A stretch of 64,000 nucleotides of DNA from Jiella sonneratiae. GTDB taxonomy: Bacteria > Pseudomonadota > Alphaproteobacteria > Rhizobiales > Rhizobiaceae. Below are positions 3,187-21,790 of the stretch, one piece after another. Made by a program: the position numbers and the translations under genes. Below the pieces are notes generated by a model, which had not been told where the DNA came from, ran no database searches, and saw only the letters and a program-made list of their open reading frames with translations. The DNA lies in NCBI RefSeq assembly GCF_017353515.1, contig NZ_JAFMPY010000014.1, forward strand, positions 1-64,000, read 5' to 3'. Each line of letters begins with the position of its first letter. Position 1 is the first letter of the stretch.

Positions 3187-4320
3187 TCACAAGGCAATCC
3201 GGTACGGAGCCAGGCGTCCGAGATCGGGGGCGACGCCGAGGCCCGCGCCCGAAGGAATCGTCATCTCGCCGTCCGCGACCGCCGGAAAGCTGCTGACGAA
3301 TTCGTCCCGCAGCGGGTTGGGATTGGCATCGACCTCGAGCACGCCGGCGCCGCCGGCCGCTGCGAGGTAATGCAGCGAGGCGACGAGGCCGATGCCGCCG
3401 CCGAGCCAGTGCGGGCACAGCGTGACGCCGCGCGACGCGGCATGCCGCGCGACCGCCATGCCGCCCGACAGGCCGCCCCACTTGCCGATGTCCGGCTGCA
3501 GGAAGCCGATCCCGCCGCCCTCCGCCATCGCCGCGAAGGCCGCCTCGCCCCTGAGGTTCTCGCCATTGGCGACCGCCACCGGCGCTGCCTCGGCGAAGCG
3601 CCGCCATTCGGCCACCGCCACGTCGGCACGCATCGGCTCCTCCAGCCATTCCGGCGCGCATTGGGCAAAGGCTTCGGCCATCGACAGCGCCTCGTCGAAG
3701 CCCCAGGCCTGGTTGGCATCCACCATGATCGGCGTCGCCGCCCCGAAGGCCGCGCGCAGCGTCCTCAGATTGCCGACGTCCCGGTCGCGGCCGAAGCCGA
3801 CCTTCACCTTGAAGCGCCGATAGCCTTCGGCATGCTTCGCCTCGGCCAGGCGTTCCGGCGCGTCGGCGTTGAGACCGCTGGCATAGGCAGGCACCGAACG
3901 GCGCTCGCCGCCGCCGAGAAAGCGGTGAAGCGGCTCGCCCGCCCGGCGCGCCAGCATGTCCCAGATGCCGAGGTCGATGCCGGCAGTCGCCTGCGCCAGC
4001 GGCCCTGGCTCGCCGCTCTGGATCGCTAGGACTTCCGTTTGCGCCGTCAGAAACGCGAAGGCGGCCTGCGGCGCCTCGAAGCGCCGGCCGAGAAGCAGCG
4101 GCGCCAGCACCGAGCCGATCAGCCGCGCCCGGTGCTCCGCGCCGACGGCGGGAAAGTTGCACCACACCTCGCCCCAGCCCTCGGCGCCATCGCAGCCGAC
4201 AACCCTGACGAACAGCGCCGGCCGGTCGCGCATCGTGCCGAAGGAGGTGACGACGGGAACCGCGATCGGCACGCGATAGACCTGCGGCTCGATGGCGGCG
4301 ATCTCGAAGCCTCTCGTCAC
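3187..4320 (-). CDS. Mandelate racemase/muconate lactonizing enzyme family protein (probable sugar-acid dehydratase)
   Basis: Product of 377 aa of the enolase superfamily, mandelate racemase (MR) subgroup. The metal ligands fit D201 (VDANQAW), E227 (EWLEEP) and E254 (NGEN). The K171-x-K173 pair (KVKVG) and the D277/H304 dyad (QPDIGKWGG, PHWLG) provide the two acid/base groups. Family members dehydrate aldonic or uronic acids to 2-keto-3-deoxy acids; the exact substrate is unknown. The start is GTG at 4320 with AAAGGACACTCC upstream. It lies 136 bp downstream of the LacI gene on the same strand and probably shares its promoter, which ties it to the divergent sugar operon. Confidence 0.85.
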   Translation of the reverse strand: MTRGFEIAAIEPQVYRVPIAVPVVTSFGTMRDRPALFVRVVGCDGAEGWGEVWCNFPAVGAEHRARLIGSVLAPLLLGRRFEAPQAAFAFLTAQTEVLAIQSGEPGPLAQATAGIDLGIWDMLARRAGEPLHRFLGGGERRSVPAYASGLNADAPERLAEAKHAEGYRRFKVKVGFGRDRDVGNLRTLRAAFGAATPIMVDANQAWGFDEALSMAEAFAQCAPEWLEEPMRADVAVAEWRRFAEAAPVAVANGENLRGEAAFAAMAEGGGIGFLQPDIGKWGGLSGGMAVARHAASRGVTLCPHWLGGGIGLVASLHYLAAAGGAGVLEVDANPNPLRDEFVSSFPAVADGEMTIPSGAGLGVAPDLGRLAPYRIAL

Positions 4321-4456: not shown

Positions 4457-5512
4457 TCACTCTTTCGGCGGCGCGGTCGACTCGCGCACCACCAGCGAAA
4501 AGTCGATCTCGCGATGCGCCATCGTCGGCGCTCCCGCCAGCGTCTGGACGAGGTATTCCCCCGCCCGCACCCAGATCTCGTCGGTCGGCATGTGGATCGT
4601 CGTCAGGCTCGGGCTGAGGTGGCGGCTCCATTCGAGATCGTCGAAGCCGACCACCGAGACGTCGCCCGGCACGGCGAGGCCGAGCTTCAGCGCTTCGAGC
4701 ATAACGCCATAGGCGATCACGTCGTTGCCGCAGACGACGGCGGTGGGGCGATGCGGCTGCGAGAGCAGCGTGCGCGCCGCCTGCCGGGCATCGTCGAGCT
4801 TGTAGTTCACCTGCAGCATCCAGGCCTCGGGCGGGGTCGCGTCATGCTCGCTCAGTTCGGCCAGGATGCCGGCGAGCCGCGCCTGGGCGCGGTCGTTGTT
4901 GCGCTGCATGGCCGCGACGATGCCGACCCTGCGGTGGCCGAGGTCGATCAGGTGGCGGGTGACCCGCCGGCCGGCCCTGGCGTTGTCGACGCCGATCGAC
5001 GGATAGGGCTTGTCGGGCTCGTAGACGCCGACATTGACGAAGGGGATCGCCTGCGCGTCGAGCAGCCGGCGCAGCTCCTCGCTGTGTTTGTCGCCGCGCA
5101 GGATCAGCCCGTCGACGCCGCGGCTGACGAGATTGCGCGCCTGCTGCAGCTCCACCTCGAGATCGTATTCGTTGGTCGCCAGCAGCAGCAGGTAGTCGCG
5201 CTGCGCCAGAAAGGACTGCAGCGCCTGCAGCCCCTGCGCGAACATCGCATTGTCGATGGTCGGCACGATGGCACCGATGGTGCGGGTGCGCCGCGAGGAA
5301 AGCGCCCGCGCCGAGGCGTCCGGGATATAGCCGATCTCCTCGATGATGGCGCTGATCTTGGCCCGAAGCTCCGGGCTGACCGAGGCCGGGTTGTTCAGCG
5401 AGCGAGAGACCGTCGCCGTCGACACGCCGGCCCGCTTGGCGACCGCCCGGATGCCGACCGCCCGCCCCCCTTCTGCAGCGGGGGTTCGCGTATCCTTGTA
5501 AATCGGTTTCAT
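4457..5512 (-). CDS. LacI-family transcriptional regulator
   Basis: Product of 351 aa. The N-terminal helix-turn-helix and hinge are typical (IRAVAKRAGVSTATVSRSLNN, hinge around ASARALSSRRT), followed by a periplasmic-binding-protein-like sugar domain ending with VSVVGFDDLEWSRHLSPSLTTI. It starts 195 bp from, and divergent to, the CUT1 sugar operon. The perfect palindrome TGTAACCGGTTACA at 5631-5644 is its likely operator, so it probably represses both the operon and itself. The inducer is unknown, presumably the transported sugar or an early intermediate. Confidence 0.9.
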   Translation of the reverse strand: MKPIYKDTRTPAAEGGRAVGIRAVAKRAGVSTATVSRSLNNPASVSPELRAKISAIIEEIGYIPDASARALSSRRTRTIGAIVPTIDNAMFAQGLQALQSFLAQRDYLLLLATNEYDLEVELQQARNLVSRGVDGLILRGDKHSEELRRLLDAQAIPFVNVGVYEPDKPYPSIGVDNARAGRRVTRHLIDLGHRRVGIVAAMQRNNDRAQARLAGILAELSEHDATPPEAWMLQVNYKLDDARQAARTLLSQPHRPTAVVCGNDVIAYGVMLEALKLGLAVPGDVSVVGFDDLEWSRHLSPSLTTIHMPTDEIWVRAGEYLVQTLAGAPTMAHREIDFSLVVRESTAPPKE

Positions 5513-5604: not shown

Positions 5605-5634
5605 TTGACACTGCCGTTCCTGCGGGTCTATGTA
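5605..5634 (+). promoter_or_regulatory. Sigma70-type promoter of the CUT1 sugar operon
   Basis: TTGACA at 5605-5610 matches the -35 consensus. After 18 bp, TATGTA at 5629-5634 can serve as -10. The -10 overlaps the left end of the palindrome at 5631-5644, so a bound repressor would block it. Confidence 0.6.
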
Positions 5635-5644
5635 ACCGGTTACA
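5631..5644. promoter_or_regulatory. LacI-family operator TGTAACCGGTTACA
   Basis: A perfect 14-bp palindrome centred on CG, as usual for LacI-family operators. It lies between the divergent repressor gene and the CUT1 operon and overlaps the predicted -10 box, 63 bp before the binding-protein start. Confidence 0.75.
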
Positions 5645-5707
5645 AGAAAAAGCCGCGGTCAAGCGGATGGCTCCGAACAACCGGACCGATCTGGGAGGAT
5701 CTGTGAC

Positions 5708-7021
5708 ATGACACTGCCCATCAAGAAGGCCTGCGGCCTGACCGCCGCGCTTCTCGCCTCCGTCGCGCTCGCCTCGGCGGCCAGCGCACAGGGCTTCGAC
5801 TGGATGGCCCACAAGGGCGAGACCATCACCTTCCTGGCGAACAACAACCCCGTCGCCACCGCCATCCTGAAATACAAGGACGACTTCGAGAAAAAGACCG
5901 GCATCACGCTGAAGGTCGACAGCTACCAGGAACAGCAGATGCGCCAGCGCCTGTTGACGGTGCTGAACGCCCATTCCGACGAGGTCGACGTCTTCATGAC
6001 GCTGCCGTCCCGCGAGGGGCGCCAGTTCGCCGCCGCCGGCTGGTACCAGGATCTCAAGCCCTATACCGGCGATCAGACGGTGTCGCCCGACTACGATTTC
6101 GGCGGCCTCGGCAAGGCGCTGGTCGACGCCGCGGTGTTCGACGGCACGCTGACCGGCATTCCGCTCAACATCGAAGGGCCGCTCCTCTACTACCGGACCG
6201 ACCTCTTCGAGAAGTGTGGCGTCGATGCCCCGAAGTCGATCGAGGACATCCAGAAGGCGGCAGAGAAGATCAAGGGCTGCTCGGACGCCTCGAACGTCAC
6301 GCCCTTCGCCTCGCGCGGCCTGAAGCCGGCGCTGCCCTACACCTTCTCGAACTTCCTGCACAACGAAGGCGGGGAATACATGAAGGACGGCAAGTCGGCG
6401 CTCTGCTCGGATGCCGGCAAGAAGGCGCTGTCGACCTATGCCAACCTTCTGAAGGACTACGGCCCTCCGGGCGTCGTCAACTACAGCTTCTACCAGCTCA
6501 CCTCGCTCTATCGCGCCGGCCGGGCGGCGATGTCCTTCCAGTCCTCCAACGAGTTTCCCTCGGTGATGGAGGGCGGCGAGCGGCTGAAGGACACCGGCAT
6601 CATGCCGCTGCCGGCGGGCGCCGGCGGCTCGCATCCGACGACGATCGGCTGGGCGATGGCGGTGTCGAAATATTCCGCCCATCCGGAGACCGCCTGGTAT
6701 TTCGTCCAGTGGGCGACGAGCCCGAAGATGCAGGCGAAGCTCGCCCTCGAAGGCATCGCGCCGCCGCGCGCCGCCGCCGCCGAGGACGCCGACTACAAGG
6801 CATGGCTCGCCGAGGAGCCGGTGCGCCAGAAGTGGCAGGAGGCGCTGCAGACGCTCGCGTCCGACGGCACCTCGGAGGTCGGCTATCCGATCGTCCAGAA
6901 TCCGGAGTCGCGCGAATATATCGGCCAGGCGGTCGACGACATCCTGCTCGGCACCGCCGACGTCGATCAGGCCTGCGCCAATGCCGACCAGCAGCTGAAC
7001 GCGCTGATCGAGCGCGAATAG
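5708..7021 (+). CDS. CUT1 sugar ABC transporter, periplasmic substrate-binding protein
   Basis: Product of 437 aa, extracellular solute-binding protein family 1 (UgpB/MalE type). A signal peptide covers about residues 1-27 (hydrophobic ALLASVALASAASA, cleavage after ASAQ or just before). It captures a sugar or sugar derivative in the periplasm and delivers it to the two permeases encoded downstream. Start ATG 5708 follows GGAGGATCTGTGAC. It is the first gene of the operon and is followed by a 10-bp-stem hairpin at 7030-7060, which should favour its expression over the membrane genes. The known sulfoquinovosyl-glycerol binder SmoF of Agrobacterium is of this transporter class, which allows but does not prove a sulfosugar ligand. 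Confidence 0.9.
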   Translation: MTLPIKKACGLTAALLASVALASAASAQGFDWMAHKGETITFLANNNPVATAILKYKDDFEKKTGITLKVDSYQEQQMRQRLLTVLNAHSDEVDVFMTLPSREGRQFAAAGWYQDLKPYTGDQTVSPDYDFGGLGKALVDAAVFDGTLTGIPLNIEGPLLYYRTDLFEKCGVDAPKSIEDIQKAAEKIKGCSDASNVTPFASRGLKPALPYTFSNFLHNEGGEYMKDGKSALCSDAGKKALSTYANLLKDYGPPGVVNYSFYQLTSLYRAGRAAMSFQSSNEFPSVMEGGERLKDTGIMPLPAGAGGSHPTTIGWAMAVSKYSAHPETAWYFVQWATSPKMQAKLALEGIAPPRAAAAEDADYKAWLAEEPVRQKWQEALQTLASDGTSEVGYPIVQNPESREYIGQAVDDILLGTADVDQACANADQQLNALIERE

Positions 7022-7029
7022 GCTGGCAA

Positions 7030-7060
7030 GAGCCGCCCGACCCTCCCAGCCGGGCGGCTC
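7030..7060 (+). terminator. Intra-operon hairpin after the binding-protein gene
   Basis: GAGCCGCCCG and CGGGCGGCTC form a perfect 10-bp stem with an 11-nt loop, starting 9 bp after the stop codon. There is no T tract. It probably stabilises the upstream message or attenuates transcription into the permease genes. Confidence 0.6.
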
Positions 7061-7080
7061 CCTCCTGTGGTGTGATCCCC

Positions 7081-7818
7081 ATGTCCCATGAGCAGTTTCA
7101 GTTCGCGCCCGGATTTCGCGCGGTCGTGATCGGCGGCCTCGGCGGCATCGGCGCGGCGATCGTCCGGCTTCTCGGCGAACTCGGCGCGCACGTCGCCGCC
7201 ACCGGCGTCGGCGAGGCGGAGATGGCGGCCTGCGGCCTCGTCGCCTCGAAGACGCTTTCGCTGCACGTTCTCGACGTCACCGACGACGCCGCCATGCGCG
7301 GCTTTGCGGCAGGCTTCGACGGCGTCGACCTCCTGGTCAACTGCGCCGGCATCCTGAGGCGCGACGCCGAATTCGACCTCGACGTCTTCCGCAAGGTGAT
7401 CGACGTCAACCTCACCGGCACCTTCAGCGCCTGCCTCGCCTTCCGGGCGGCGCTCGCCAAGAAGCACGGCTCGATCGTCAACATCGCCTCGATGAACGCC
7501 TATTCCGGCCTGCCGCGGATTCCCGCCTATTGCGCCAGCAAGGCCGGCGTCGTGATGCTGACCAAGAGCCTGGCGCTCGCTTGGGCGAACGATCCGATCC
7601 GCGTCAACGCCGTCGCCCCCGGCTTCATCGAGACGCAGATCAACGCCGAAGGCCGCAAGGAGCTCGCCCACTACCAGCGCATCGCCGGCCGCACCGCGCT
7701 CGGCCGCTGGGGCCAGCCGGAGGAGATCGCCGGCACCGTCGCCTTCCTCGCCATGCCCGCCAGCGCCTATGTCACCGGCACCGTCTTCGCCGTCGACGGC
7801 GGCTTCCTGGCCGGTTGA
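7081..7818 (+). CDS. Short-chain dehydrogenase/reductase
   Basis: Product of 245 aa, classical SDR. The cofactor motif GGLGGIG is at residues 18-24, NCAG at 87-90, and the catalytic S137, Y150 and K154 fit the pattern (NIASMNAY, YCASK). It oxidises or reduces a hydroxyl with NAD(P). It lies between the binding-protein gene and the permease genes of the same operon, so its substrate should be the imported sugar or a near derivative. In the pathway proposed here it would be one half of an oxidation-reduction pair with the zinc dehydrogenase encoded downstream. Start ATG 7081; the gene ends 10 bp before the permease start. Confidence 0.88.
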   Translation: MSHEQFQFAPGFRAVVIGGLGGIGAAIVRLLGELGAHVAATGVGEAEMAACGLVASKTLSLHVLDVTDDAAMRGFAAGFDGVDLLVNCAGILRRDAEFDLDVFRKVIDVNLTGTFSACLAFRAALAKKHGSIVNIASMNAYSGLPRIPAYCASKAGVVMLTKSLALAWANDPIRVNAVAPGFIETQINAEGRKELAHYQRIAGRTALGRWGQPEEIAGTVAFLAMPASAYVTGTVFAVDGGFLAG

Positions 7819-7828
7819 GGCGCGCGTG

Positions 7829-8698
7829 ATGGCCAGGACCCTCTCCCCCCGCGGCCAGCTCCTCGGCCTCTCGGCCCCGGCGCTGGTCTTCACAGTCGTG
7901 ATGATCGCCTTCCCGTTCGGCTATACGCTGTGGCTGAGCCTGCAGTCCTTCACCGCGACCGGCATGACGCGGTTCGAGGGCCTCGGCAACTACGGCCGCA
8001 TGGTCTCCGACGGGCAGTTCTGGAACGGCCTGACCGTCACCTTCTACCTCTACTTCCTGTCGCTCGCTTTGCAGCTCTTCTTCGGCACGGTGCTGGCGCT
8101 CCTGCTCTTCCGCGCCAAGAAGCTGCCCGGCATCGTCCGCTCGCTGTTCATCTCGCCCTTCATGATGCCGCCGGTGGTCGCCGGGATGATGTGGCTGGTG
8201 ATCCTCGATCCCTCGCTCGGCGCGGCGAACTTCATCCTCACCTCGCTCGGCCTGCCGCCGTCGACCTGGCTGGCATCGCCCGGCCTCGTGGTGCCGACGC
8301 TGGCGCTGATCGACAGCTGGCAGTGGAGCCCCTATGTCGCGCTCATCGTCCTCGGCGGCCTGCAGGCGCTGCCGCCGAGCGTCTACGAGGCGGCCGAGAT
8401 CGACGGCGCCTCGGGCTGGAAGGTGCTCTGGCGGATCACCCTGCCGCTGCTCCTGCCGACGCTCGCCACCGCGACGATCCTGCGAAGCGTCGACCTCCTG
8501 CGCTTCTTCGATCTCATCTACATCACCACCCAGGGCGGGCCGGCCAACGCCTCCACGACCCTCAACATCTACGGCTTCCGCACCGGCTTCGAGTTCTTCC
8601 AGCTCGGCTATGCGAGCGCGCTGATGGTGACGCTCTCGGTGATCGTGCTCGGCGCGGTGCTCATCCTCAACCGCATGCGCGACGCGGTCGCCTGGTAG
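7829..8698 (+). CDS. CUT1 sugar ABC transporter permease (MalF/UgpA type)
   Basis: Product of 289 aa with about six membrane segments, the first around residues 10-35. The cytoplasmic EAA loop is present (EAAEIDGASGWKVLWRITLPLL), which docks to the ATPase. It forms the channel with the next gene product. Start ATG 7829; an adjacent in-frame GTG at 7826 is possible, and the ribosome site TTGAGG overlaps the preceding stop codon. It belongs to the operon that starts at 5708. Confidence 0.92.
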   Translation: MARTLSPRGQLLGLSAPALVFTVVMIAFPFGYTLWLSLQSFTATGMTRFEGLGNYGRMVSDGQFWNGLTVTFYLYFLSLALQLFFGTVLALLLFRAKKLPGIVRSLFISPFMMPPVVAGMMWLVILDPSLGAANFILTSLGLPPSTWLASPGLVVPTLALIDSWQWSPYVALIVLGGLQALPPSVYEAAEIDGASGWKVLWRITLPLLLPTLATATILRSVDLLRFFDLIYITTQGGPANASTTLNIYGFRTGFEFFQLGYASALMVTLSVIVLGAVLILNRMRDAVAW

Positions 8699-8708
8699 GA
8701 AAGAGACG

Positions 8709-9536
8709 ATGTCCGCGATTGCAAGCTCCGACCGCCTCACGGCGTGGCTCAACGCCGTCCTGCTGTTCTTCGCCGGCTGCGTCGTGATGATCCCGACGCT
8801 GTGGATGGTGCTCTCCTCCTTCAAGCAGTCCTTCGAGGTCACCGCCTATCCGCCGACGCTGTTCTTCACGCCGACGCTCGAGAACTACGTTTCGCTGTCG
8901 GAGACGACGCCGTTCCTCCACTACGCCTTCAACTCGATGGTGGTGACCACCGCCTCGACCCTTCTCGGGCTGATCCTCGGCGCCCCCGCCGCCTTCGTCG
9001 CCTCCTGGACGCGGATCACCTGGCCGGCGGTGGTGACGCTGGTCGCGCGCATGGCGCCCGGCACGCTGTTCCTCCTGCCCTGGTACGTGATGTTTCGGCA
9101 GGTCGACATGATCGGCAGCTACTGGGCGCTGATCCTCACCCATGCGGTGATCACCATGCCGATCGTCATCTGGGTGCTGCTGCCGTTCTTCGACAACATC
9201 CCGCGCAGCGTCTACGAGGCGGCGCAGGTCGACGGCTGCTCGCCCTTCCGGGTGTTCTGGCGGATCGCCCTGCCGCTCGTCACCTCGGGCCTCGCTGTCT
9301 CGGCGATCCTCGCCTTCGTCTTCTCCTGGAACTACTTCCTCTTCGCGCTGGTCCTGTCGAATTCCGACACCAAGACGCTGATCGCCGCCTCCTTCAACTT
9401 CATCGGCGAAGGCTCGACCAACTGGGGCGCCCTGATGGCCGCCGCCACGCTGATCGCTTTGCCGCCCCTCGTCCTCGCCGTCATCGTCCAGCGCTGGCTG
9501 ATCTCCGGCCTGACGCTCGGCGCCGTGAAAGGCTGA
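8709..9536 (+). CDS. CUT1 sugar ABC transporter permease (MalG/UgpE type)
   Basis: Product of 275 aa with six predicted membrane segments and the EAA loop EAAQVDGCSPFRVFWRIALPL. Partner of the upstream permease. The start at 8709 is preceded by AGGAAAGAGACG. The 10-bp gap to the gene before and 6-bp gap to the gene after indicate one transcript. Confidence 0.92.
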   Translation: MSAIASSDRLTAWLNAVLLFFAGCVVMIPTLWMVLSSFKQSFEVTAYPPTLFFTPTLENYVSLSETTPFLHYAFNSMVVTTASTLLGLILGAPAAFVASWTRITWPAVVTLVARMAPGTLFLLPWYVMFRQVDMIGSYWALILTHAVITMPIVIWVLLPFFDNIPRSVYEAAQVDGCSPFRVFWRIALPLVTSGLAVSAILAFVFSWNYFLFALVLSNSDTKTLIAASFNFIGEGSTNWGALMAAATLIALPPLVLAVIVQRWLISGLTLGAVKG

Positions 9537-9542
9537 TCCGCC

Positions 9543-10562
9543 ATGCCGACCGCCGACCCCACCACCCAGCGCCCGCAGATGCGCGCGGCCGCCTTCCACG
9601 GCGAGGACCGCATCAGCGTCGAGACCGTTCCCCTGCCCGAGCCGGGACCCGGCGAGGCGCTGGTGAAGATCCTGCGCACCGCCCTCTGCGGCTCCGACTT
9701 CAAGCTCTGGCACAAGGGCGCCGAGCACATCGCCGGCCACGAGATCTTCGGCCGGGTGGAACAGCCGGGCCATGCGCTGCACGGCCGGCGCTGCGCCGTC
9801 TACATCCCGGTCCATTGCGGGCACTGCGCGGCATGCCGGGCCGGCGACACGCAGATGTGCCTCGAGGTCTCCTCGCTGATCGGCTGGAACCGCGACGGCG
9901 GCTACTGCGAATATGTCGCCGTTCCCAACGACTGCCTGCTGCCGGTGCCCGACGACATTCCCGACGATCTCGGGCCCCTCCTCCTCGACACGATCGGCAC
10001 CTCGGCCCATGCCGTGCGCGAGGCGCAGCGCTTCGTCGCCCGCGACGGCGACCCGGCGGTGCTCGTCACCGGCGCGGGGCCCGTCGGCCTCGGCGTCGTC
10101 CTCGCCCTCAGGGCGCTCGGCTACGGCCGGGTCTTCGTCTCCGACCCGAACCCGGAGCGCCTTTCGATCGCCGTCTCCTTCGGCGCGGCGGCACATCCGG
10201 TCGGCAGCCGCGAGGCCCGTTTCAAGATGATCGTCGAATGCTCCGGCGCCCATGCCGCGCGCAACCTCGCGATCGAGCTGGTCCTGCCGAAGGGCGTCAT
10301 CGTCCTCGTCGGCGAGAACGCCGCGCCCTGGACGATCACCGAGGACAAGGTGTTCCGCCGCAAGGACTTCGCCATGCTGCGCACCTTCTATTTCCCGAAG
10401 GGTGATCTCGACGCCAACGTCGAGCTGCTGCGCGCCAACAAGGAGCGCTACGCCCGGCTGGTGGACGAGCGCTTCGGCCTCGACGCCTTGCCCGAACGCT
10501 TCGCCCGTTTCGCCGAAGGCAAGTCGATCAAGCCGGTCCTCGCCTTCGAGGAGACCCGCTGA
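9543..10562 (+). CDS. Zinc-dependent alcohol dehydrogenase (MDR superfamily)
   Basis: Product of 339 aa. Catalytic zinc ligands fit C49 (ALCGSD) and H66-E67 (AGHE). The structural-zinc lobe is present (C92, C95, C98, C106 in HCGHCAACRAGDTQMC). A Rossmann motif GAGPVG lies at 177-182. Relatives include sorbitol, threonine and galactitol dehydrogenases, so it probably interconverts a polyol and a ketose, or a sugar and a keto-sugar, with NAD(P). It sits between the permease and ATPase genes; its TGA overlaps the next ATG by 1 bp. The pairing with an SDR in an operon that lacks an obvious sugar isomerase is notable. Confidence 0.85.
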   Translation: MPTADPTTQRPQMRAAAFHGEDRISVETVPLPEPGPGEALVKILRTALCGSDFKLWHKGAEHIAGHEIFGRVEQPGHALHGRRCAVYIPVHCGHCAACRAGDTQMCLEVSSLIGWNRDGGYCEYVAVPNDCLLPVPDDIPDDLGPLLLDTIGTSAHAVREAQRFVARDGDPAVLVTGAGPVGLGVVLALRALGYGRVFVSDPNPERLSIAVSFGAAAHPVGSREARFKMIVECSGAHAARNLAIELVLPKGVIVLVGENAAPWTITEDKVFRRKDFAMLRTFYFPKGDLDANVELLRANKERYARLVDERFGLDALPERFARFAEGKSIKPVLAFEETR

Positions 10563-11641
10563 TGGCCTCGCTCTCGATGCGCAAGCTGGTGAAGAAATAC
10601 GGCGACTTCACCGTCATTCCCGATCTCGACCTGGAAATTCCCGACCACGAATTCGTCGTGCTGGTCGGCCCGTCCGGCTGCGGCAAGTCCACCCTCCTGC
10701 GGGTGCTCGCCGGGCTCGAATCGATCAATGGCGGCGACCTGTTCATCGGCGACCAGCGGGTCAACGACGTGCCGGCGGCCAAGCGCGACATCGCCATGGT
10801 TTTCCAGGACTACGCGCTCTATCCGCACATGACGGTGCGCCAGAACATGGCCTTCTCGCTCGAGATGCGCGGCATGACCAGGGAGGAGATCGCCGGGCGG
10901 GTCGAGCGCGCCGCCGGCCTCCTGCACATCGGCGACTTCCTCGACCGGCGGCCGAAGCAGCTCTCCGGCGGCCAGCGCCAGCGCGTCGCCATGGGCCGCG
11001 CCATCGTGCGCAATCCCAAGGTCTTCCTGTTCGACGAGCCGCTGTCGAACCTCGACGCCAAGCTGCGCGCCCAGGTGCGCGCCGAGATCAAGGCGCTGTC
11101 GCAGCAGCTGAGGACGACGATGGTCTTCGTCACCCACGATCAGGTCGAGGCGATGACCATGGCCGACCGGATCGTCGTCATGAAGTCCGGCGTCATCCAG
11201 CAGGTCGGAACGCCGGAGGAGGTCTACGAGACCCCGAACAACCTCTTCGTCGCCGGCTTCATCGGCTCGCCGGCGATGAACTTCCTGCCCGTGACGCTCG
11301 GCGACGGCAGAGCGCGGCTCGCCGACGGCCGCGCGCTGCCGGCCGAAATCCTCGGATCCGGCCTCGCGCCCTCTGCCGGATCCGGCGAAGGGCTGGTCCT
11401 CGGCGTGCGGCCGGAGCATTTCGCCGTCGCGCCAAACGATGCCGACGCGCTGCCCGTCACCGTCGACCTCGTCGAGCCGCTCGGCTCCGACACGCTGGTC
11501 CACTTCAAGCTGGCCGAGACGGATGCGATCGCGCGGGTCTCGCCGGACCTTCGCCCGAAGCCCGGCGACACGCTTCCCCTCATCCCGGTCCGCGGCAAGG
11601 CGCTCCTGTTCGAGCAGGAATCCGGTCGCGCGATCCGCTGA
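10562..11641 (+). CDS. CUT1 sugar ABC transporter ATPase (MalK/UgpC type)
   Basis: Product of 359 aa. Walker A GPSGCGKST at 36-44, signature LSGGQRQRV, Walker B followed by DEPLSNLD, H-loop in FVTHDQVEAM, then a C-terminal TOBE/OB regulatory region from about residue 240. It energises import through the two permeases encoded upstream. Full length for the family. The 1-bp TGATG overlap with the dehydrogenase gene implies translational coupling. Confidence 0.94.
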   Translation: MASLSMRKLVKKYGDFTVIPDLDLEIPDHEFVVLVGPSGCGKSTLLRVLAGLESINGGDLFIGDQRVNDVPAAKRDIAMVFQDYALYPHMTVRQNMAFSLEMRGMTREEIAGRVERAAGLLHIGDFLDRRPKQLSGGQRQRVAMGRAIVRNPKVFLFDEPLSNLDAKLRAQVRAEIKALSQQLRTTMVFVTHDQVEAMTMADRIVVMKSGVIQQVGTPEEVYETPNNLFVAGFIGSPAMNFLPVTLGDGRARLADGRALPAEILGSGLAPSAGSGEGLVLGVRPEHFAVAPNDADALPVTVDLVEPLGSDTLVHFKLAETDAIARVSPDLRPKPGDTLPLIPVRGKALLFEQESGRAIR

Positions 11642-11666
11642 CAGCAAGAAGACAAGGAGTTCCGCC

Positions 11667-13127
11667 ATGGCGATCACCGGCCTCACCGACCCGAGCCTCT
11701 TCACAGAGAGCTGCCTCGTCGCCGGCGAATGGATCGGCGCCGGGACCGGCGCCTCGATCCCCGTCACCGATCCCGCCGACGGCAGCGTCATCGCCGCCGT
11801 GCCGAGCCTCGACACCGCCGCGGTGAGACGCGCGATCGACGCCGCCGAAGCCGCACAGAAGAACTGGGCGAAGCGCTCCGCCAAGGAGCGTGCCGGGCTG
11901 ATCCGCCGCTGGTACGAGCTGATCGTCGCGAATGCCGACGACCTCGCCAGGATCCTCACCGCCGAGCAGGGCAAGCCGCTCGCCGAAGCCAAAGGCGAGA
12001 TCGTCGCCAACGCCGCCTATCTCGAATGGTTCGCGGAGGAGGCCAAGCGCGTCTATGGCGACATCGTGCCGCCGCCGGGTGCCGACCGCCGCATCCTCGT
12101 GATGAAGCAGCCGGTCGGCGTCTGTGCGGCGATCACGCCGTGGAACTTTCCGAACGGCATGATCACCCGCAAGGCCGGGCCGGCGCTGGCGGCGGGCTGC
12201 AGCATCGTCGTCAAGCCGGCCTCCCAGACGCCGCTCTCGGCGCTCTCGCTCGGCGTCCTCGCCGAACGCGCCGGAATTCCCGCCGGCGTCTTCCAGGTCG
12301 TCACCGGCAAGGCCCGCGAGATCGGCACCGAGTTCACCGCCAATCCGAAGGTCGCCAAGATCTCCTTCACCGGCTCGACCGAGGTCGGGCGCTGGCTGAT
12401 GCGCGAGGGCGCCGCGACGATCAAGCGTCTGTCGCTGGAACTCGGCGGCAATGCACCCTTCATCGTCTTCGAGGACGCCGATCTCGACGCAGCGGTCGAG
12501 GGCGCGATGATCGCGAAGTTCCGCAATTCCGGGCAGACCTGCGTCTGCGCCAACCGGATCTACGTCCATGAGAGCCTCGCCGACGCCTTTGCGCAGAAGC
12601 TCGCGGCGGCTGCGGACGGGCTGAAGGTCGGGCGCGGCACCGAGGCGGGCGTCACCCAGGGCCCGCTGATCGACGAGGCCGCCGTCGCCAAGATGGAGGA
12701 GCATCTGAGAAACGCCCTCGACAACGGCGCGCGGCTCGTCACCGGCGGCGGGCGCCACGAACTCGGCGGCACCTTCTTCCAGCCGACGGTCCTCTCCGGC
12801 GTCACGCAGGCGATGAAGCTCGCCCATGAGGAGACCTTCGCGCCGCTCGCGCCGATCATCCCCTTCGCCAGCGAGGCCGACGTCGTCGCGATGGCCAACG
12901 ACACCGAGTTCGGTCTCGCCGCCTATTTCTACACCCGCGACCTCGCCCGCATGTTCCGCGTCGCCGAGGCGCTCGAAAGCGGCATCGTCGGGGTGAATTC
13001 CGGCCTCATCGCCAACGAGATGGCGCCCTTCGGCGGCTACAAGCAGTCGGGTCTCGGCCGCGAGGGATCGAAATACGGGATCGAGGAATATCTCGAGACC
13101 AAATATGTCTGCGTCGCCGGGCTATGA
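11667..13127 (+). CDS. NAD(P)-dependent aldehyde dehydrogenase, GabD-like
   Basis: Product of 486 aa of the aldehyde dehydrogenase superfamily, closest in feel to succinate-semialdehyde dehydrogenases. Catalytic residues fit N160 (TPWNFP), K183, E258 (LELGG) and C292 (GQTCVC). GabD-type enzymes also serve as sulfolactaldehyde dehydrogenase in the sulfo-Entner-Doudoroff pathway, so here it may oxidise the aldehyde released by the aldolase encoded two genes on. The start at 11667 follows AAGGAGTTCCGCC; longer upstream readings overlap the ATPase gene in another frame. Its end overlaps the kinase start by 4 bp (ATGA). Confidence 0.88.
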   Translation: MAITGLTDPSLFTESCLVAGEWIGAGTGASIPVTDPADGSVIAAVPSLDTAAVRRAIDAAEAAQKNWAKRSAKERAGLIRRWYELIVANADDLARILTAEQGKPLAEAKGEIVANAAYLEWFAEEAKRVYGDIVPPPGADRRILVMKQPVGVCAAITPWNFPNGMITRKAGPALAAGCSIVVKPASQTPLSALSLGVLAERAGIPAGVFQVVTGKAREIGTEFTANPKVAKISFTGSTEVGRWLMREGAATIKRLSLELGGNAPFIVFEDADLDAAVEGAMIAKFRNSGQTCVCANRIYVHESLADAFAQKLAAAADGLKVGRGTEAGVTQGPLIDEAAVAKMEEHLRNALDNGARLVTGGGRHELGGTFFQPTVLSGVTQAMKLAHEETFAPLAPIIPFASEADVVAMANDTEFGLAAYFYTRDLARMFRVAEALESGIVGVNSGLIANEMAPFGGYKQSGLGREGSKYGIEEYLETKYVCVAGL

Positions 13128-14056
13128 CCGGTCTCGCGCCGGCCTTCGGCGAGCGCCCGTCCACGGTGATCTGCCTCGGCCTTTCGGCCTTCGACTACAT
13201 CTGGCAGGTCGAGCGGCTGCCCGAGGGCCGCAGCGACAAGGTGCGGGCGCCCGAATTCATGACCAAGGGCGGCGGCATGGCCGCCACCGCGGCGGTGGCG
13301 GTGGCGCGTCTCGGCGGCAAGGCGCACTTCTGGGGCCGGGCCGGCGAGGACCGCGAAGGCGCGGCGATGCGGGACGAACTCGCGGCCGAAGGCGTCGACG
13401 TCTCGGGTTTCCGGCTGTTTGCCGGCGGCCGCTCGTCGATTTCCGGCGTCTTCGTCGACCCGGCGGGCGAACGCCACATCGCGAATTTCCGCGGCGAGAA
13501 GCTTCCCGCCGCGCCGGACTTTCTGCCGCTCGCCGAGATCGCAGCGGCCGGCGCCGTGCTCGCCGATCCGCGCTGGCCGGAGGGGGCCGAGGCCGCCTTT
13601 GCCGCCGCGCGCGAAGCCGGCGTTCCGACGGTTCTCGATGCCGACGTCGCGGACCGGGCGGTGTTCGAGATGCTGCTTCCCCTCACCGACCATGCGGTGT
13701 TCTCGGCGCCGGCCCTGGCGGGCTTTGCCGGAAGGGATGCGGAGGCCGCCCTCGCGGAGGTCGCGGGCTACGGCTGCCGGATCGCGGCGGCGACGCTCGG
13801 CGGCGACGGCGTCCTGTGGCGGGAAGCCGGCGCGACCGCCCGCCGGCCGGCCTTCGCGGTTCCGGTCGTCGACACGACGGGGGCGGGCGACGTCTTCCAC
13901 GGCGCCTATGCGCTCGCCGTCGCACAGGGCGCCGCGACGGGCGATGCGATCGGCTTCGCCAGCGCCGCCGCGGCGCTCAAATGCACCGCGCCCGGCGGCC
14001 GGCGCGGCATCCCGACATTCGATCAGACGATAAAATTCTGGAGAGACAATTCATGA
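13124..14056 (+). CDS. PfkB-family sugar kinase, sulfofructose-kinase-like
   Basis: Product of 310 aa of the ribokinase/PfkB family. The ATP-site motif DTTGAGD is at 250-256 with catalytic D256; the N-terminal GGG-x-AATAAVAVARLGG block is typical. From memory of E. coli YihV (sulfofructose kinase), similarity runs along the whole chain, including the ending ALKCTxPGGRxGIP. YihV residues K27, N109 and R138, which I recall as contacting the sulfonate, align with K39, N121 and R150 here. It would phosphorylate C1 of a ketose; a sulfonated or other C6-modified ketose is inferred. It overlaps both neighbours by 4 bp, which couples it to the aldolase. Confidence 0.82.
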   Translation: MTGLAPAFGERPSTVICLGLSAFDYIWQVERLPEGRSDKVRAPEFMTKGGGMAATAAVAVARLGGKAHFWGRAGEDREGAAMRDELAAEGVDVSGFRLFAGGRSSISGVFVDPAGERHIANFRGEKLPAAPDFLPLAEIAAAGAVLADPRWPEGAEAAFAAAREAGVPTVLDADVADRAVFEMLLPLTDHAVFSAPALAGFAGRDAEAALAEVAGYGCRIAAATLGGDGVLWREAGATARRPAFAVPVVDTTGAGDVFHGAYALAVAQGAATGDAIGFASAAAALKCTAPGGRRGIPTFDQTIKFWRDNS

Positions 14057-15090
14057 CGACGATCGGCAAGAGCCGCGGCCTCGCCCGCCTCGCGGACGCG
14101 GACGGACATTTCACCATGGTGGCGCTCGACCAGCGACCGCCGCTGATCGCCGCCATCGCCAAGGCCAAGGGCGTTTCGGCCGCGGACGTCACCTTCGCCG
14201 ACATGCTCGCGGCGAAGCGCCTCCTGGTGAAGGCGCTCGCCGACGAGGCCTCCTCGATGCTGTTCGATCCGAATTTCGCGATCCCCGCGGCGATCGACAT
14301 CCTGCCGGCCAGGACCGGCCTGATCGTCACTTTGGAGGAGCACCGCTTCGAGGAGACGCCCGGCGGGCGCAAGTCGCGCTCGATCGACAACTGGAGCGTC
14401 GGCAAGATCCGCCGGCTCGGCGGCGACGCGGTCAAGGTGCTCGCCTGGTACCGGCCCGACGCCGCGGCCGAGGTCGTCGCCCACCAGAAGGCCTATGTGC
14501 GCGCCGTCGGCGCCGAATGCCGCCGCCACGACATCCCCTATGTGCTGGAACTCCTGGTCTATCCGTTCCCGGACAGCGCCTCCCACACCACCGACTACGT
14601 GGAATCCCCCGACAAGCGCGCCGAGCTGGTGATCGACAGCGTGCGGGAATTCGCCAGGCCCGAATACGGCGTCGACCTCTTCAAGCTGGAGACGCCGCTT
14701 CCCGGCGCCTCCCTGCCGGAATTCGGTGCCGGCGCGGCGTCGAAAAAGGCCGCGGCCGAGTTCGAGGCGATCGGCGGCATCTGCCGCGAGGCCGGCGTGC
14801 CGTGGGTCATGCTGTCCGGCGGCGTCGCTCCGGATCAGTTCGAGCGGGTGATGACCTATTCCTACGCTGCGGGCGCGCAGGGCTTCCTCGCCGGCCGCAC
14901 GATCTGGCTCGACGCCGTGCAGTCGCACTTCCCGGACGAGGCCGGCGTCCTCGGGGCGCTGAGGGGCGACGGTTTGACGCGGCTGACGTCGCTGAAGACG
15001 CTGACCCGGGCGAAGGGCGTCCCCTTTGTGGCACGCTACGACTTCGCCGGCGTCCGGCGCGAGGGCGACGTCGCGGCCTCCTACGCCTGA
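14053..15090 (+). CDS. Class I aldolase of the LacD/YihT family
   Basis: Product of 345 aa, TIM-barrel Schiff-base aldolase. The lysine in VDLFKLETP (K211) aligns with the Schiff-base lysine of LacD and YihT, where the context is LxKVExP. VALDQR near the N-terminus and WVMLSGGV and AGRTIW near the C-terminus are family marks. LacD splits tagatose 1,6-bisphosphate and YihT splits sulfofructose 1-phosphate; both give dihydroxyacetone phosphate and an aldehyde. Directly after the kinase with an ATGA overlap, it probably cleaves that kinase's product; the aldehyde would go to the aldehyde dehydrogenase. Last gene of the operon, followed by a hairpin at 15132-15160. Confidence 0.85.
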   Translation: MTTIGKSRGLARLADADGHFTMVALDQRPPLIAAIAKAKGVSAADVTFADMLAAKRLLVKALADEASSMLFDPNFAIPAAIDILPARTGLIVTLEEHRFEETPGGRKSRSIDNWSVGKIRRLGGDAVKVLAWYRPDAAAEVVAHQKAYVRAVGAECRRHDIPYVLELLVYPFPDSASHTTDYVESPDKRAELVIDSVREFARPEYGVDLFKLETPLPGASLPEFGAGAASKKAAAEFEAIGGICREAGVPWVMLSGGVAPDQFERVMTYSYAAGAQGFLAGRTIWLDAVQSHFPDEAGVLGALRGDGLTRLTSLKTLTRAKGVPFVARYDFAGVRREGDVAASYA

Positions 15091-15375: not shown

Positions 15376-16842
15376 TTGGAGCGTCCCGTGCAGAAGCGGA
15401 TGCCACGGTTGACCGCTGTGCTGTTTCTACCAGTGATTGGCTTGTTGCTTGTCACGGGCGGATTCGTTGCATTTGCGATCCATTGGTCCGCCAGCCAGAC
15501 CGACGCGCAGTCGGTCCGCCGCGAGACCACCCTGGTGCACAAGCTGATGGACCAGCGGATCGCCCAGATCACCAAGAACCAGCAGACCACGACGTCGTGG
15601 GACGATGCGCTGCGGCAGGTGCTCGGCCGCCGCGATCCCGTATGGTTCGACGAAAATCTCGGGATCTGGATGTATAATTATTTCGGCATCGACCGCACCT
15701 TCATCCTCGACGGGGCGGATCATGCCGTCTACGCGATGATCGACGGCCGCCGCGACGAGCCGGGCAGCTATTTCACCCAGGCCTCGGCGGTCGCGCCGGT
15801 CGTCGCGGAACTCCGGCAGCGCCGGAGGAAGGCCGGGGCCTCCGAGGACGCGCCGACGGCGGTGAAACGCTACGTCATCCTGGAGAACCGGCCTGCCGTG
15901 GCCAGTGCCGCCGCGATCCTCTCCGATACCGGGCAAATCGAGCAGGTCGCGGGAGAAGAGGCGGTGCATATCGCCGTCCAGTTCCTCGACGGACGTTTCC
16001 TCGCCCAGCTCGACGCCGACTTCCTGATCGACCATCCGCGCTTTTCCTGGACCGGCCATCTGGGTCCTCACGAGGCGGCCTTCCCCCTGAATGCCGACGG
16101 CGCGGAACTCGGCTATCTGGTCTGGACGGTGCAGCAGCCCGGGACGAAGATCCTCAAACAGATGGTGCCGACGCTCGCCGCGGCCGGCGCCGTCATCGTG
16201 CTGCTCGCCGGCGTCCTTCTCTTCCGGGTCCACCAGACGACGCGCAAGCTCGCCGTTTCGCAGCGGCAGATCGAGTTCATGGCGCATCACGACTCGCTGA
16301 CGGGCCTTGCCAACCGCTTCACCTTCCAGTGCCACCTCGACGAGCGGATGCGGGAGTTCGACCGCACGTGTCGGGGTTTCGCGGTTCTCTATCTCGATCT
16401 CGACCGGTTCAAGACGGTCAACGACACGCTCGGCCACCAGGCCGGCGACGAACTTCTCCGGCAGACCGGAGAGCGCATCACGGCGCTGGTCGCGGCGCAC
16501 GACATGGTGGCGCGTCTCGGCGGCGACGAATTCGCCGTCCTGTGCGACGATGTCCGCGATCGCTCCGAGGTCGAGACCCTGTCGCGGAACATCGTCGAAG
16601 CCGTCCAGAATCCGTTCGAGATCGCGGGGGAGCCGGTGTTCGTCGGCGTGTCGATCGGTGCCGCGATGGCCTCGCGCGAGATGGCGGACGAGGCCGATCT
16701 CGTCCGCCGCGCCGACGTCGCGCTCTACCGCGTGAAGAATTCCGGCCGCAACGGCTACGTCGTCTTCGGGGAGAACGACGGCGTGCCGGAGGCCGGACGC
16801 AAGGGCGCCCACCTCGGCGTGGCCCGGCTCGCCTATGGCTGA
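15376..16842 (+). CDS. Diguanylate cyclase with CHASE4-type sensor
   Basis: Product of up to 488 aa. A membrane segment (about 11-36) is followed by a periplasmic CHASE4-like domain (about 45-240, with DQRIAQITKNQQTTTSWDDA), a second membrane segment (about 260-280) and a GGDEF domain (about 295-465). The active-site motif GGDEF is intact, so it should make cyclic di-GMP from GTP. The product-inhibition site RxxD just before it reads AAHD, so feedback inhibition is probably missing. Start is uncertain: TTG 15376, GTG 15388 or ATG 15400 are in frame and none has a strong ribosome site. Transcribed alone and convergent with the next gene. Confidence 0.9.
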   Translation: MERPVQKRMPRLTAVLFLPVIGLLLVTGGFVAFAIHWSASQTDAQSVRRETTLVHKLMDQRIAQITKNQQTTTSWDDALRQVLGRRDPVWFDENLGIWMYNYFGIDRTFILDGADHAVYAMIDGRRDEPGSYFTQASAVAPVVAELRQRRRKAGASEDAPTAVKRYVILENRPAVASAAAILSDTGQIEQVAGEEAVHIAVQFLDGRFLAQLDADFLIDHPRFSWTGHLGPHEAAFPLNADGAELGYLVWTVQQPGTKILKQMVPTLAAAGAVIVLLAGVLLFRVHQTTRKLAVSQRQIEFMAHHDSLTGLANRFTFQCHLDERMREFDRTCRGFAVLYLDLDRFKTVNDTLGHQAGDELLRQTGERITALVAAHDMVARLGGDEFAVLCDDVRDRSEVETLSRNIVEAVQNPFEIAGEPVFVGVSIGAAMASREMADEADLVRRADVALYRVKNSGRNGYVVFGENDGVPEAGRKGAHLGVARLAYG

Positions 16843-18754: not shown

Positions 18755-19312
18755 TTACCGGGCGGCCTTCAGCCGGACGGCGCTGCCGCAGCTGCAGCAG
18801 GCATGCGAGAAGTCGATCGGGGTGATGCCGGCATCGGGCTCGGCGGCGGCGATCAGCAGCCCCTGGGCGGCGTGAAGCTGGCGCAGGACGCCGCGCTTGC
18901 CGTCTTCGTCCGGCGCGGCGCCGCGGCTCGCGGCGAGGCGGTCCATCGCCTGCGCCGCAGCGGCGAGATGGCCGGCCATCAACGACAGCGCCGCGTGATG
19001 GCGCGTCGCCGCCGCCGGCACGGCCAGCGCCCGGAGATCGTCGCGGCCGGCGGCCAGCTGGTCGCAGGCGACGCCGAACATCGGATGATCGAGCTGCAGC
19101 GCCCGGCCGCCCCCGGTCAGCCGCAGGAGAAACAGCCCGGAAAGCTGCGCCATCACCCGGGCGAGCGTCTCGTAGACCGGGCGCACGCCGCTGCGGTATC
19201 GCTGCATCGCCTCGTCGCCCGGCTCGACATGCGCGAGCCGCGCATCGGCTTCGGGCGGCGGCGGCAGATCCCAGACGTCGCAGTGGCTGGCATGGAATGG
19301 CGTGCGGCTCAT
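18755..19312 (-). CDS. Conserved-looking protein of unknown function in a sugar operon
   Basis: Product of 185 aa that I do not recognise. It looks mostly alpha-helical, with an alanine- and leucine-rich middle, many histidines, and a C-terminal CCSCGSA cluster that could bind a metal. There is no signal peptide or membrane segment. Its start overlaps the LacI-family stop by 4 bp (ATGA) and it lies 28 bp before the MBL hydrolase gene, so it is co-expressed with both. Coding is supported by these overlaps and by the absence of an alternative gene. Confidence 0.7.
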   Translation of the reverse strand: MSRTPFHASHCDVWDLPPPPEADARLAHVEPGDEAMQRYRSGVRPVYETLARVMAQLSGLFLLRLTGGGRALQLDHPMFGVACDQLAAGRDDLRALAVPAAATRHHAALSLMAGHLAAAAQAMDRLAASRGAAPDEDGKRGVLRQLHAAQGLLIAAAEPDAGITPIDFSHACCSCGSAVRLKAAR

Positions 19313-20346
19313 GGGCGAAGCGTCTCCGGCAGGCGCGCCGACCCGCGGATCATCAGCCGCCCCGGCAGGAAATGCTGTTCGGGCCTGCCGGGCTCGCGCT
19401 TCTGCAGGCGGGTGATCTCGGCAATGGTGCGATCGATCATCGCGTTCATCGGCTGGCGGACGGTCGTCAGGTCGTGCGAGGGCCACGCCGCCATGGCGAT
19501 GTCGTCGAAGCCGACGATCGAGACGTCCTCGGGAATGCGCAGGCCGAGCTCGCAGCGGGCGGCGTCCATTGCGCCGATCGCGACGATGTCGTTGCCGCAG
19601 AACACGGCGTCGGTCGAGGGAGCGCGCGCGAACAGCGCCTTCATCCCGTCGTAGCCGGCCTCGTAGGTGAAGTCGCCGCCGGAGGCGGCGTCCGGCGTCG
19701 GCAGGCCCGCCGCCTCGCAGCCGCCGAGGAATCCGCGCATCCGGTCGACGTTGGTGCTCGCGGTGGCGAGGCCCTGGATATAGGCCGGGCGCCGGTGGCC
19801 CGCCGCGGCGAGCCGCGCCGCGACGAGGGCCCCGCCGGCCTCGTTGTCGCAGCACACGACGCTCGCCCGCGCCCCCGTCACGTAGCGATTGAACAGGATG
19901 ATCGGCGTCTCGCTTTCCTGGAAGTGCTTCAGGAAGTCGGGGGTCATCGTCGCGGCGAGGACCACCACCATGTCCGGGGCGATCTGGCGCAGCGCCGGCA
20001 GCGAGTGCTCGACGGAATCCTCCCACGAAATGAGCATCGTGTGGAGGTTCATCTCCTGCAGGCGGCGGGTCAGCTTGACCGTCACCTCCGGGTAGAAGGG
20101 ATTGGTGATGTTGTTGGCGAGCAGCGCGACGATGCCGCTCTTCCTGGTGATCAGCCCGCGGGCGAAGAGATTGGGCGCATATCCCATCTCCTTGGCCTTT
20201 TCGAGCACCCGCTCGCGGGTTTCCCGGGCGATCGTCGGATCGTCGCTCAGGGCCCGCGACACGGTGGCGACGGAGACCTTGGCCTCGCGCGCCACGTCCC
20301 TGACGGTGATCCGGCCGCGACCGGCGCGGCCGCCCGCCGGCGCCAT
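19309..20346 (-). CDS. LacI-family transcriptional regulator
   Basis: Product of 345 aa. The helix-turn-helix is ITVRDVAREAKVSVATVSRALS, followed by a sugar-binding effector domain ending with VSIVGFDDIAMAAWPSHDLTTV. It is encoded within the operon it probably controls, 46 bp after the HisD-like gene. The palindrome TGGAAACGTTTCCA, found before both the transporter ATPase gene (26863-26876) and the binding-protein gene (23163-23176), is the likely target. The start at 20346 was chosen because homology begins just after it; a longer reading to 20430 would overlap hisD-like coding sequence. Confidence 0.88.
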   Translation of the reverse strand: MAPAGGRAGRGRITVRDVAREAKVSVATVSRALSDDPTIARETRERVLEKAKEMGYAPNLFARGLITRKSGIVALLANNITNPFYPEVTVKLTRRLQEMNLHTMLISWEDSVEHSLPALRQIAPDMVVVLAATMTPDFLKHFQESETPIILFNRYVTGARASVVCCDNEAGGALVAARLAAAGHRRPAYIQGLATASTNVDRMRGFLGGCEAAGLPTPDAASGGDFTYEAGYDGMKALFARAPSTDAVFCGNDIVAIGAMDAARCELGLRIPEDVSIVGFDDIAMAAWPSHDLTTVRQPMNAMIDRTIAEITRLQKREPGRPEQHFLPGRLMIRGSARLPETLRP

Positions 20347-20392
20347 CACCCCGTCTTTTCCGGCATCGTCCACCGCTCGCCTCACCGCGCCG

Positions 20393-21721: not shown

Positions 21722-21790
21722 TTTCAATATCCTTTGTCATCGGCCGGGATCGCTTCGACCCACGCGCCGCAGATCAGCCAAACCAATGGC

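Follow-up and report, generated by a model that had tools for sequence, protein, structure and literature searches.

A LacI-controlled operon of Jiella sonneratiae that probably degrades a sulfonated sugar through an isomerase-free variant of the sulfo-EMP pathway

We analyzed a 64,000-nucleotide stretch of the Jiella sonneratiae genome (contig NZ_JAFMPY010000014.1; hereafter the window) and observed a LacI-controlled operon that probably degrades a sulfonated sugar or derivative, here called X. The proposed route is a variant of the sulfo-Embden-Meyerhof-Parnas (sulfo-EMP) pathway that has two dehydrogenases and no isomerase. The evidence for a kinase/aldolase core of the sulfosugar type is good, that for an isomerase-free route is fair, and the link of the operon to sulfonates is well supported. 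X is probably a sulfosugar other than sulfoquinovose (SQ). An earlier note on this DNA had described an importer, two dehydrogenases, a GabD-like enzyme, a kinase and an aldolase, and this gene set is present in full. That note had also proposed conversion of a sulfosugar, or of another C6-modified ketose, into dihydroxyacetone phosphate (DHAP) and an aldehyde that is oxidized to an acid. Homology and gene context uphold the module, this wider wording still holds, and SQ is disfavoured as the substrate.

Kinase, aldolase and aldehyde dehydrogenase

The core of the operon is a YihV-like PfkB kinase, the proposed sulfoketose 1-kinase (13124..14056, + strand), and a LacD-type class I aldolase, the proposed sulfoketose-1-phosphate aldolase (14053..15090, +). 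Against the PDB, the kinase matched YihV first (7ag6; 1.9e-63, 43% identity), then the uncharacterized sugar kinase 2rbc and then ribokinases. Our alignment confirmed that K39, N121 and R150 stand opposite YihV K27, N109 and R138, which we take to be sulfonate-binding residues. Among the 87 rows of the kinase cluster, K39 was present in 87 and N121 and R150 in 86 each; the single row without N121/R150 was taken, by its matching letters, to be the kinase of a distant Devosia locus (L009). In the kinase tree, made like the aldolase tree by a quick method without bootstraps, E. coli YihV grouped with the operon and isomerase-linked kinases (SH-aLRT 82, unstarred), apart from RbsK and KdgK. We therefore did not see the clustering with non-sulfo ketose kinases that the earlier note had named as grounds for abandoning its proposal. 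LacC was placed inside the same group on a branch of length 10, so its position is meaningless. With YihV as its nearest PDB chain and the K/N/R residues retained, the kinase is a candidate YihV-type sulfo-EMP kinase. As judged from the alignments, the K/N/R pocket is a marker of the operon and no proof of a sulfonate.

The aldolase matched PDB entry 8tnf first (3e-171), then LacD-type tagatose-bisphosphate aldolases (6e-38 and weaker) and then YihT (1e-15). The 8tnf match carries only the molecule name 'DUF2090 domain-containing protein', and its aligned letters were 100% identical to the aldolase of Paracoccus strain Merri over 324 residues. K211, the presumed Schiff-base lysine, was invariant in seven operon aldolases, in agreement with the earlier note, as were K128 and E166, which by motif would correspond to LacD Lys126 and Glu164. 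The earlier description as YihT/LacD-like held for LacD only, and we rejected membership in the YihT family because the LacD chain is the closer of the two. As a putative sulfofructose-1-phosphate aldolase, the protein thus retains the catalytic Lys/Glu and has the isomerase-linked aldolases as near relatives, yet is nearer to LacD than to YihT. In the aldolase tree, in which the outgroup branches are long, 23 isomerase-linked rows formed one group (100, starred) apart from 20 window-type rows.

A GabD-type aldehyde dehydrogenase, the proposed sulfolactaldehyde (SLA) dehydrogenase (about 11664..13127, +), precedes the two genes, as had been noted earlier. Its nearest solved relative was RlGabD (8c54; 4.5e-235), which is described in the accessible text of PMC10599462 as a verified SLA dehydrogenase from a host that runs the sulfo-Entner-Doudoroff pathway. 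In an alignment read by eye, the window enzyme retained the WNF motif, the Cys and both proposed sulfonate Arg residues. Its closeness to RlGabD makes it a candidate SLA dehydrogenase, with residues that are shared with succinate semialdehyde dehydrogenase (SSADH).

Conservation of the operon

Homologous gene sets were observed in 86 loci besides the window, with L003 and L084 being one record. These were Rhizobiaceae and Variovorax plasmids plus 80 loci from species genomes that we scanned with an alignment of aldolases; 100 of 121 pattern matches were confirmed and the best 80 retained. Loci from the relatives search were fetched with at most 10 kb on each side, and some contigs end sooner. 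Genes were called with a codon-usage script (L133 was read by tblastn only), presence was called by hand-set identity cut-offs within the fetched stretches, and we compiled the genus lists, adjacency table and lineages manually. Among the 87 loci, the aldolase was present in 87, the kinase in 86, the alcohol dehydrogenase (ADH) in 84, the solute-binding protein (SBP) in 83 and the short-chain dehydrogenase (SDR) in 82. The MR/MLE enzyme (55), GabD (20) and a TauE-type gene (20) were less constant, and the LacI regulator cluster was present in 83 of 89 loci. This co-occurrence indicates that the gene set is not due to chance; the operon is real and widespread. The closest locus was that of Aurantimonas sp. 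VKM B-3413 (aldolase 86%, kinase 81%). Across the window's order, 34 of 397 genomes had the aldolase, which was of window type in 8 (68-100% identity) and distant in 26 (40-52%). The 8 comprised the window, one congener and six genomes from one genus (judged to be Bradyrhizobium).

Sulfatase-family genes adjoin the operon in L003, L004 and L023, and L003 and L004 also have a gene for a formylglycine-generating enzyme or sulfatase-modifying factor. Given these sulfatase-family neighbours, the imported compound may also bear sulfate esters.

Genes for sulfonate metabolism

SuyB was present in 83 of the 397 genomes of the order, including 20 of the 34 aldolase-positive ones (P = 4e-7, Fisher); counted by genus, the association was 15/18 against 30/123 (P = 2e-6). 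In six window-type loci of four lineages, SuyB and the aldolase were no more than 15 kb apart (crude chance 1e-6, which assumes random gene placement, untrue of catabolic genes). The distance was at most 10 kb in Nitratireductor, Pararhizobium and a Burkholderiales metagenome-assembled genome (MAG), and 10-15 kb in three Paracoccus genomes. In Nitratireductor, the neighbours comprised SuyB and SuyA homologues, ComC-type and SlcC-type dehydrogenases, TctA/TctB and a YeiH-type exporter. The genome of strain Merri has a 79% SuyB relative about 10 kb from the aldolase, as is the SuyB named by locus tag in the accessible part of PMC12421959. Three of the five Paracoccus loci have the operon placed between ComC-type genes and the sulfofucose operon. 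The window's own genome has homologues of SuyA, SuyB (85%), SlcC and ComC together on another contig, C8. By Pfam class, SuyB is of the galactarate/altronate dehydratase type, far below the NCBIfam cut-off of that model.

The loci with TauE-type genes belong to Comamonadaceae as well as to Rhizobiaceae and their relatives (Pfam-confirmed in L002 and L088). We also counted the TauE family in the window's genome (7 matches), but all 14 control genomes were positive, and the count is hence uninformative. In Xaviernesmea (L024), the kinase, aldolase and MR/MLE genes directly follow an SsuA/TauC-like importer (matches below cut-offs).

Isomerase-linked relatives

From the 26 genomes with distant aldolases, we fetched 19 loci. 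An SQ-isomerase-family gene lay beside the aldolase in 14 of these; the kinase was also present in 13 of those 14 loci, and a GFO/IDH oxidoreductase or GH31 gene likewise in 13. The isomerase family was confirmed by NCBIfam in two loci and by Pfam in one more; two scanned isomerases scored 248 and 268 bits to NF048012 (SQ isomerase), below the cut-off of 700. SuyB, SuyA and SlcC homologues were present in five of the 19 loci (ComC in four), which were the five fetched because SuyB was near. All five (L129-L133) have an SftI/SqvD-type isomerase, a YihV-like kinase, a LacD-type aldolase, SlcC, SuyA and SuyB, with ComC in four and GabD in three; these are apparently complete SQ mineralization clusters in single genomes. 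A plasmid of Deinococcus peraridilitoris (L151:1490-12214) shares the layout of the isomerase-linked clusters, with adjacent genes for an annotated L-fucose isomerase, PfkB, LacD, SSADH and a GH31-like TIM-barrel protein; it likely carries a sulfo-EMP cluster outside the Proteobacteria.

No SQ isomerase was found in any of the 87 window-type loci, nor was an isomerase of the YihS or SqvD/SftI type in the window's own genome, searched with one query per type and without a positive control. Because the isomerase was found in 0 of 87 loci while the SDR was present in 82 and the ADH in 84, the plainest reading is that SDR and ADH occupy the place that the isomerase has in related clusters.

The MR/MLE enzyme and the operon layout

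The LacI-family regulator (4457..5512, -; NCBIfam matches all below cut-off) and an MR/MLE enzyme of the enolase superfamily (3187..4320, -; Pfam PF13378/PF02746) lie divergently on the left, outside the stretch covered by the earlier note, and belong to the unit. The mandelate-racemase-type residues K171-x-K173, D201, E228, E254, D277 and H304 of the MR/MLE enzyme were invariant in 19 of 19 aligned sequences; we presume that they have the catalytic roles usual for this set. By sequence and by the fold of the AlphaFold model (pLDDT 89.1), the nearest solved chain was 3ddm (49% identity), which has no stated function. In 38 of 49 operon genomes, the gene was close to the aldolase (15 kb or less): 27 of the 29 without a SuyB match and 11 of the 20 with one (P = 0.004, Fisher). 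By hand-made lineages, the contrast was 9/9 against 6/13 (P = 0.017). A relative (E up to 1e-50) was present somewhere in 47 of the 49 genomes; we therefore rejected a simple replacement of SuyAB by MR/MLE and retained only the weaker statement on adjacency. In three annotated Rhizobiaceae loci (L002, L003 and L007), the gene immediately after MR/MLE belongs to the TauE/TSUP family. In Rhizobium sp. CC-CFT758, the MR/MLE gene (L003:15877-16996) matched in two separate pieces and may be broken there.

On the + strand, the operon begins with a CUT1 SBP (5708..7021; PDB relatives 5iai and 4rya, with SmoF further away). Its AlphaFold model (pLDDT 85.8) matched CUT1 SBPs in general, SmoF among them. 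A polyol-specific SBP was considered because 5iai and 4rya were top by sequence; we rejected it, since by fold these two could not be told apart from SmoF or maltose binders. The SBP gene is followed by the SDR (7060..7818, start 7060 or 7072; PF13561), CUT1 permeases A (7829..8698; UgpA/GlcT-like) and B (8709..9536; MalG/UgpE-like), a Zn-dependent ADH that PF08240/PF00107 and PDB relatives place in the threonine-dehydrogenase/sorbitol-dehydrogenase type (9543..10562), and a UgpC/MsmX-type ABC transporter ATPase (10562..11641; NF008653 above cut-off). Three junctions overlap: ADH/ATPase by 1 bp, GabD/kinase by 4 bp (13124-13127) and kinase/aldolase by 4 bp (14053-14056), the last as seen earlier. 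The SDR and MR/MLE proteins were tried as sulfofucose enzymes and rejected, as they share only 31% and 26% identity with the presumed SfcH and SfcF genes of the sulfofucose cluster.

Other genes of the window

A CHASE4-GGDEF diguanylate cyclase (15433-16842, +) lies immediately downstream of the operon. A second catabolic unit (19309-29749, -) encodes a LacI regulator, a HisD-like dehydrogenase, a Peripla_BP_4 binding protein with transporter-like open reading frames (ORFs), and PF01261, PF00596 and PF07005/PF17042 proteins. We take the last three to resemble OtnI, OtnC and OtnK of four-carbon acid sugar breakdown. The HisD-like enzyme (20393-21727) may oxidize a C4 polyol or sugar. We rejected it as HpsN, the 2,3-dihydroxypropane-1-sulfonate dehydrogenase, although HpsN was its best PDB match: the G-R-Y-A/S-H motif, which has a sulfonate-binding His according to the accessible text of PMC11382572, reads G-K-F-P-M here. 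Dak1 and Dak2 kinase subunits are encoded at 38028-44594 (-) beside ORFs with sugar-transporter-like starts, and a LacI-like ORF lies near them (44966-46033).

Discussion

We propose that the CUT1 ABC importer would bring X into the cell, where the Zn-dependent ADH and the SDR together would convert it to a 6-sulfo-ketohexose, replacing SQ isomerase. Homology and conserved residues suggest that the YihV-like kinase would phosphorylate C1 and that the LacD-type aldolase would then form DHAP and 3-sulfolactaldehyde via a Schiff base on K211. By its homology to RlGabD, GabD would oxidize sulfolactaldehyde to sulfolactate. The SlcC/ComC and SuyAB homologues, whose genes are present on the other contig of the same genome, may complete the route to pyruvate and sulfite. 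In the open-access literature, we found no described pathway of this type.

The most direct comparison is with strain Merri (Paracoccus onubensis; P. wurundjeri in PMC12421959), whose operon is 69% (SBP), 68% (SDR), 69% (ADH), 62% (kinase), 73% (aldolase) and 46% (MR/MLE) identical to that of the window and has no GabD gene inside. From gene order and family, we infer that MDP0926266/268/269 are the Merri ADH, kinase and aldolase. As far as the accessible text of PMC12421959 goes, its authors noted these three proteins and weighed an EMP-like sulfofucose route but did not assign the operon; the proven pathway is the neighbouring one of Entner-Doudoroff type (SfcH, SfcD, SfcF and SfcE). Homologues of both SfcF and SfcH were found in 3 of the 87 loci (all Paracoccus) and of SfcE in 6; SfcD was not searched.

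Several observations weigh against a sulfosugar operon. Among the isomerase-linked kinases, N121 was kept in 9 of 12 and was otherwise S, G and G; the L009, L146 and L153 kinases have neither N nor R (G and S), and those of L137, L141 and L143 lack N only. The pocket therefore varies, and not every member of the family is of sulfo type. GabD was found in just 20 of the 87 loci, and both of its proposed sulfonate Arg residues are also present in human SSADH, so these residues do not discriminate between the two enzymes. The order-wide association with SuyB is due to the branch of distant aldolases, most of them isomerase-linked (SuyB in 18 of 26); window-type aldolases showed no enrichment (2 of 8, P = 0.42). 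SuyB was sought in 49 operon genomes from the 80 scanned loci (37 non-Bradyrhizobium and 13 of 43 Bradyrhizobium loci, less L012), several of them MAGs, and was not found in 29, among them all 13 Bradyrhizobium. SuyA, SuyB, SlcC and ComC were named from size, order, Pfam class and the accessible part of PMC12421959; no library model confirmed the name SuyA or SuyB, and SuyA matched no model. No assay of any operon member on a sulfosugar was found in the open-access literature. According to the accessible text of PMC12421959, the Merri kinase and aldolase showed no significant increase on sulfofucose, the ADH was raised but did not oxidize SLA, and this operon-bearing strain grows on sulfofucose and not on SQ. 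Merri is the one operon bearer whose growth on SQ was looked up. These growth and expression data, again within the accessible text, suggest that a third sulfonated compound is probably the substrate of the operon.

The Devosia L009 kinase/aldolase pair sits among Edd, fructose bisphosphatase, aldose epimerase and amino-acid-type transporters. The L009, L146 and L153 pairs are probably a non-sulfo branch.

The MR/MLE enzyme may be a sulfolactate lyase or a sulfolactate racemase, or may catalyze a pre-kinase step on an acid intermediate. We give little credence to an extended scheme in which, besides the replacement of the isomerase by two dehydrogenases, the operon has in MR/MLE its own C-S cleaving enzyme, an enolase-superfamily sulfolactate sulfo-lyase. 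Such an enzyme would abstract the C2 proton from sulfolactate and eliminate sulfite from C3, which the scheme likens to the elimination of water by acid-sugar dehydratases, and the TauE-type protein would export the sulfite. The TauE/TSUP-family gene behind MR/MLE and the more frequent proximity of MR/MLE to the aldolase where SuyB was not found speak for it. Three observations limit it: the window genome and Paracoccus have both MR/MLE and SuyB, 13 of the 29 genomes without a SuyB match are Bradyrhizobium, and an MR/MLE relative is present in 47 of the 49 genomes.

The proximity of MR/MLE to the aldolase in 38 of the 49 operon genomes also suits a plain-sugar route like that of De Ley and Doudoroff, which we consider unlikely. 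A dehydrogenase would give an aldonic acid, MR/MLE would dehydrate it, and the PfkB and LacD-type proteins would be a 2-keto-3-deoxygluconate-type kinase and a 2-keto-3-deoxy-6-phosphogluconate-type aldolase. Dehydratases are common among MR/MLE enzymes, and in L024 the transporter, kinase, aldolase, MR/MLE and a GFO/IDH oxidoreductase form one set. However, the kinase groups with YihV and the isomerase-linked kinases, whereas KdgK is far (23% identity), and a C6-sulfonate offers no C6-OH for phosphorylation. The route also leaves GabD without a role and the SuyB, TauE and sulfonate-type transporter neighbours unexplained.

X might instead bear a carboxylate at C6, as in 5-keto-aldonates or in the 2-deoxy-5-keto-gluconate of inositol breakdown, an idea that we rate as rather improbable. 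The anion pocket could accommodate a carboxylate, GabD-like enzymes take semialdehydes, and the ADH and SDR presumably resemble a keto-aldonate dehydrogenase pair. The same enzyme logic is proposed, in the accessible text of PMC9007349, for IolC-DUF2090, in which a kinase and a LacD-related domain would give DHAP and a semialdehyde. Against this idea, the IolC N-terminal model scored 63 bits (cut-off 300), no other solved kinase is as near as YihV, and the gene neighbours are of sulfonate type.

Ordinary sulfo-EMP breakdown of SQ, with SDR and ADH isomerizing SQ to sulfofructose via sulfo-sorbitol and an unlinked glycosidase freeing the SQ, has in its favour that SQ is the abundant natural sulfosugar and that the kinases and aldolases of isomerase-linked clusters are near relatives, but it is improbable: Merri does not grow on SQ (accessible text of PMC12421959), and by our hand-set cut-offs no gene like the GH31 or GFO of the isomerase clusters was found in the 87 loci (SQases were not searched in the window's own genome).

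If the operon does degrade a sulfosugar other than SQ, then many Alpha- and Betaproteobacteria, including Bradyrhizobium, Shinella, Sinorhizobium medicae (on plasmids), Paracoccus, Aurantimonas and Variovorax, would do so, which implies an environmental sulfosugar pool not yet named. It would provide an isomerase-free entry into sulfoglycolysis, possibly a second kind of sulfolactate lyase, and a function for PDB entry 8tnf.

Comparison with known systems

Like the sulfo-EMP pathway of E. coli (YihS, YihV, YihT and YihU), the operon encodes a YihV-type kinase with K/N/R and a class I aldolase of the PF01791 family, with DHAP and sulfolactaldehyde as the expected products. Unlike it, no YihS-type gene was found in the loci or the own genome and no GH31 gene in the loci; the aldolase is nearer to LacD than to YihT, an oxidative GabD takes the place of YihU, and the importer is of ABC type. 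The window operon also adds two dehydrogenases and the MR/MLE enzyme. Because the isomerase, a defining feature of that pathway, was not found, we do not file the operon as canonical sulfo-EMP. The isomerase-linked hybrid sulfo-EMP clusters, which are mentioned in the accessible parts of PMC12890257 and PMC10599462, are alike in their kinases (39-46%) and aldolases (40-52%), which are near relatives, and in the recurrence of SuyB-type genes; they differ in having the isomerase and, by our hand-set cut-offs, no set of SDR, ADH and MR/MLE. Cluster 2 of Paracoccus wurundjeri Merri contains the orthologous operon, with 8tnf matching its aldolase, whereas the sulfofucose Entner-Doudoroff pathway of the same strain is set apart by the low identity of the window SDR to its presumed SfcH (31%) and of the window MR/MLE to its presumed SfcF (26%).

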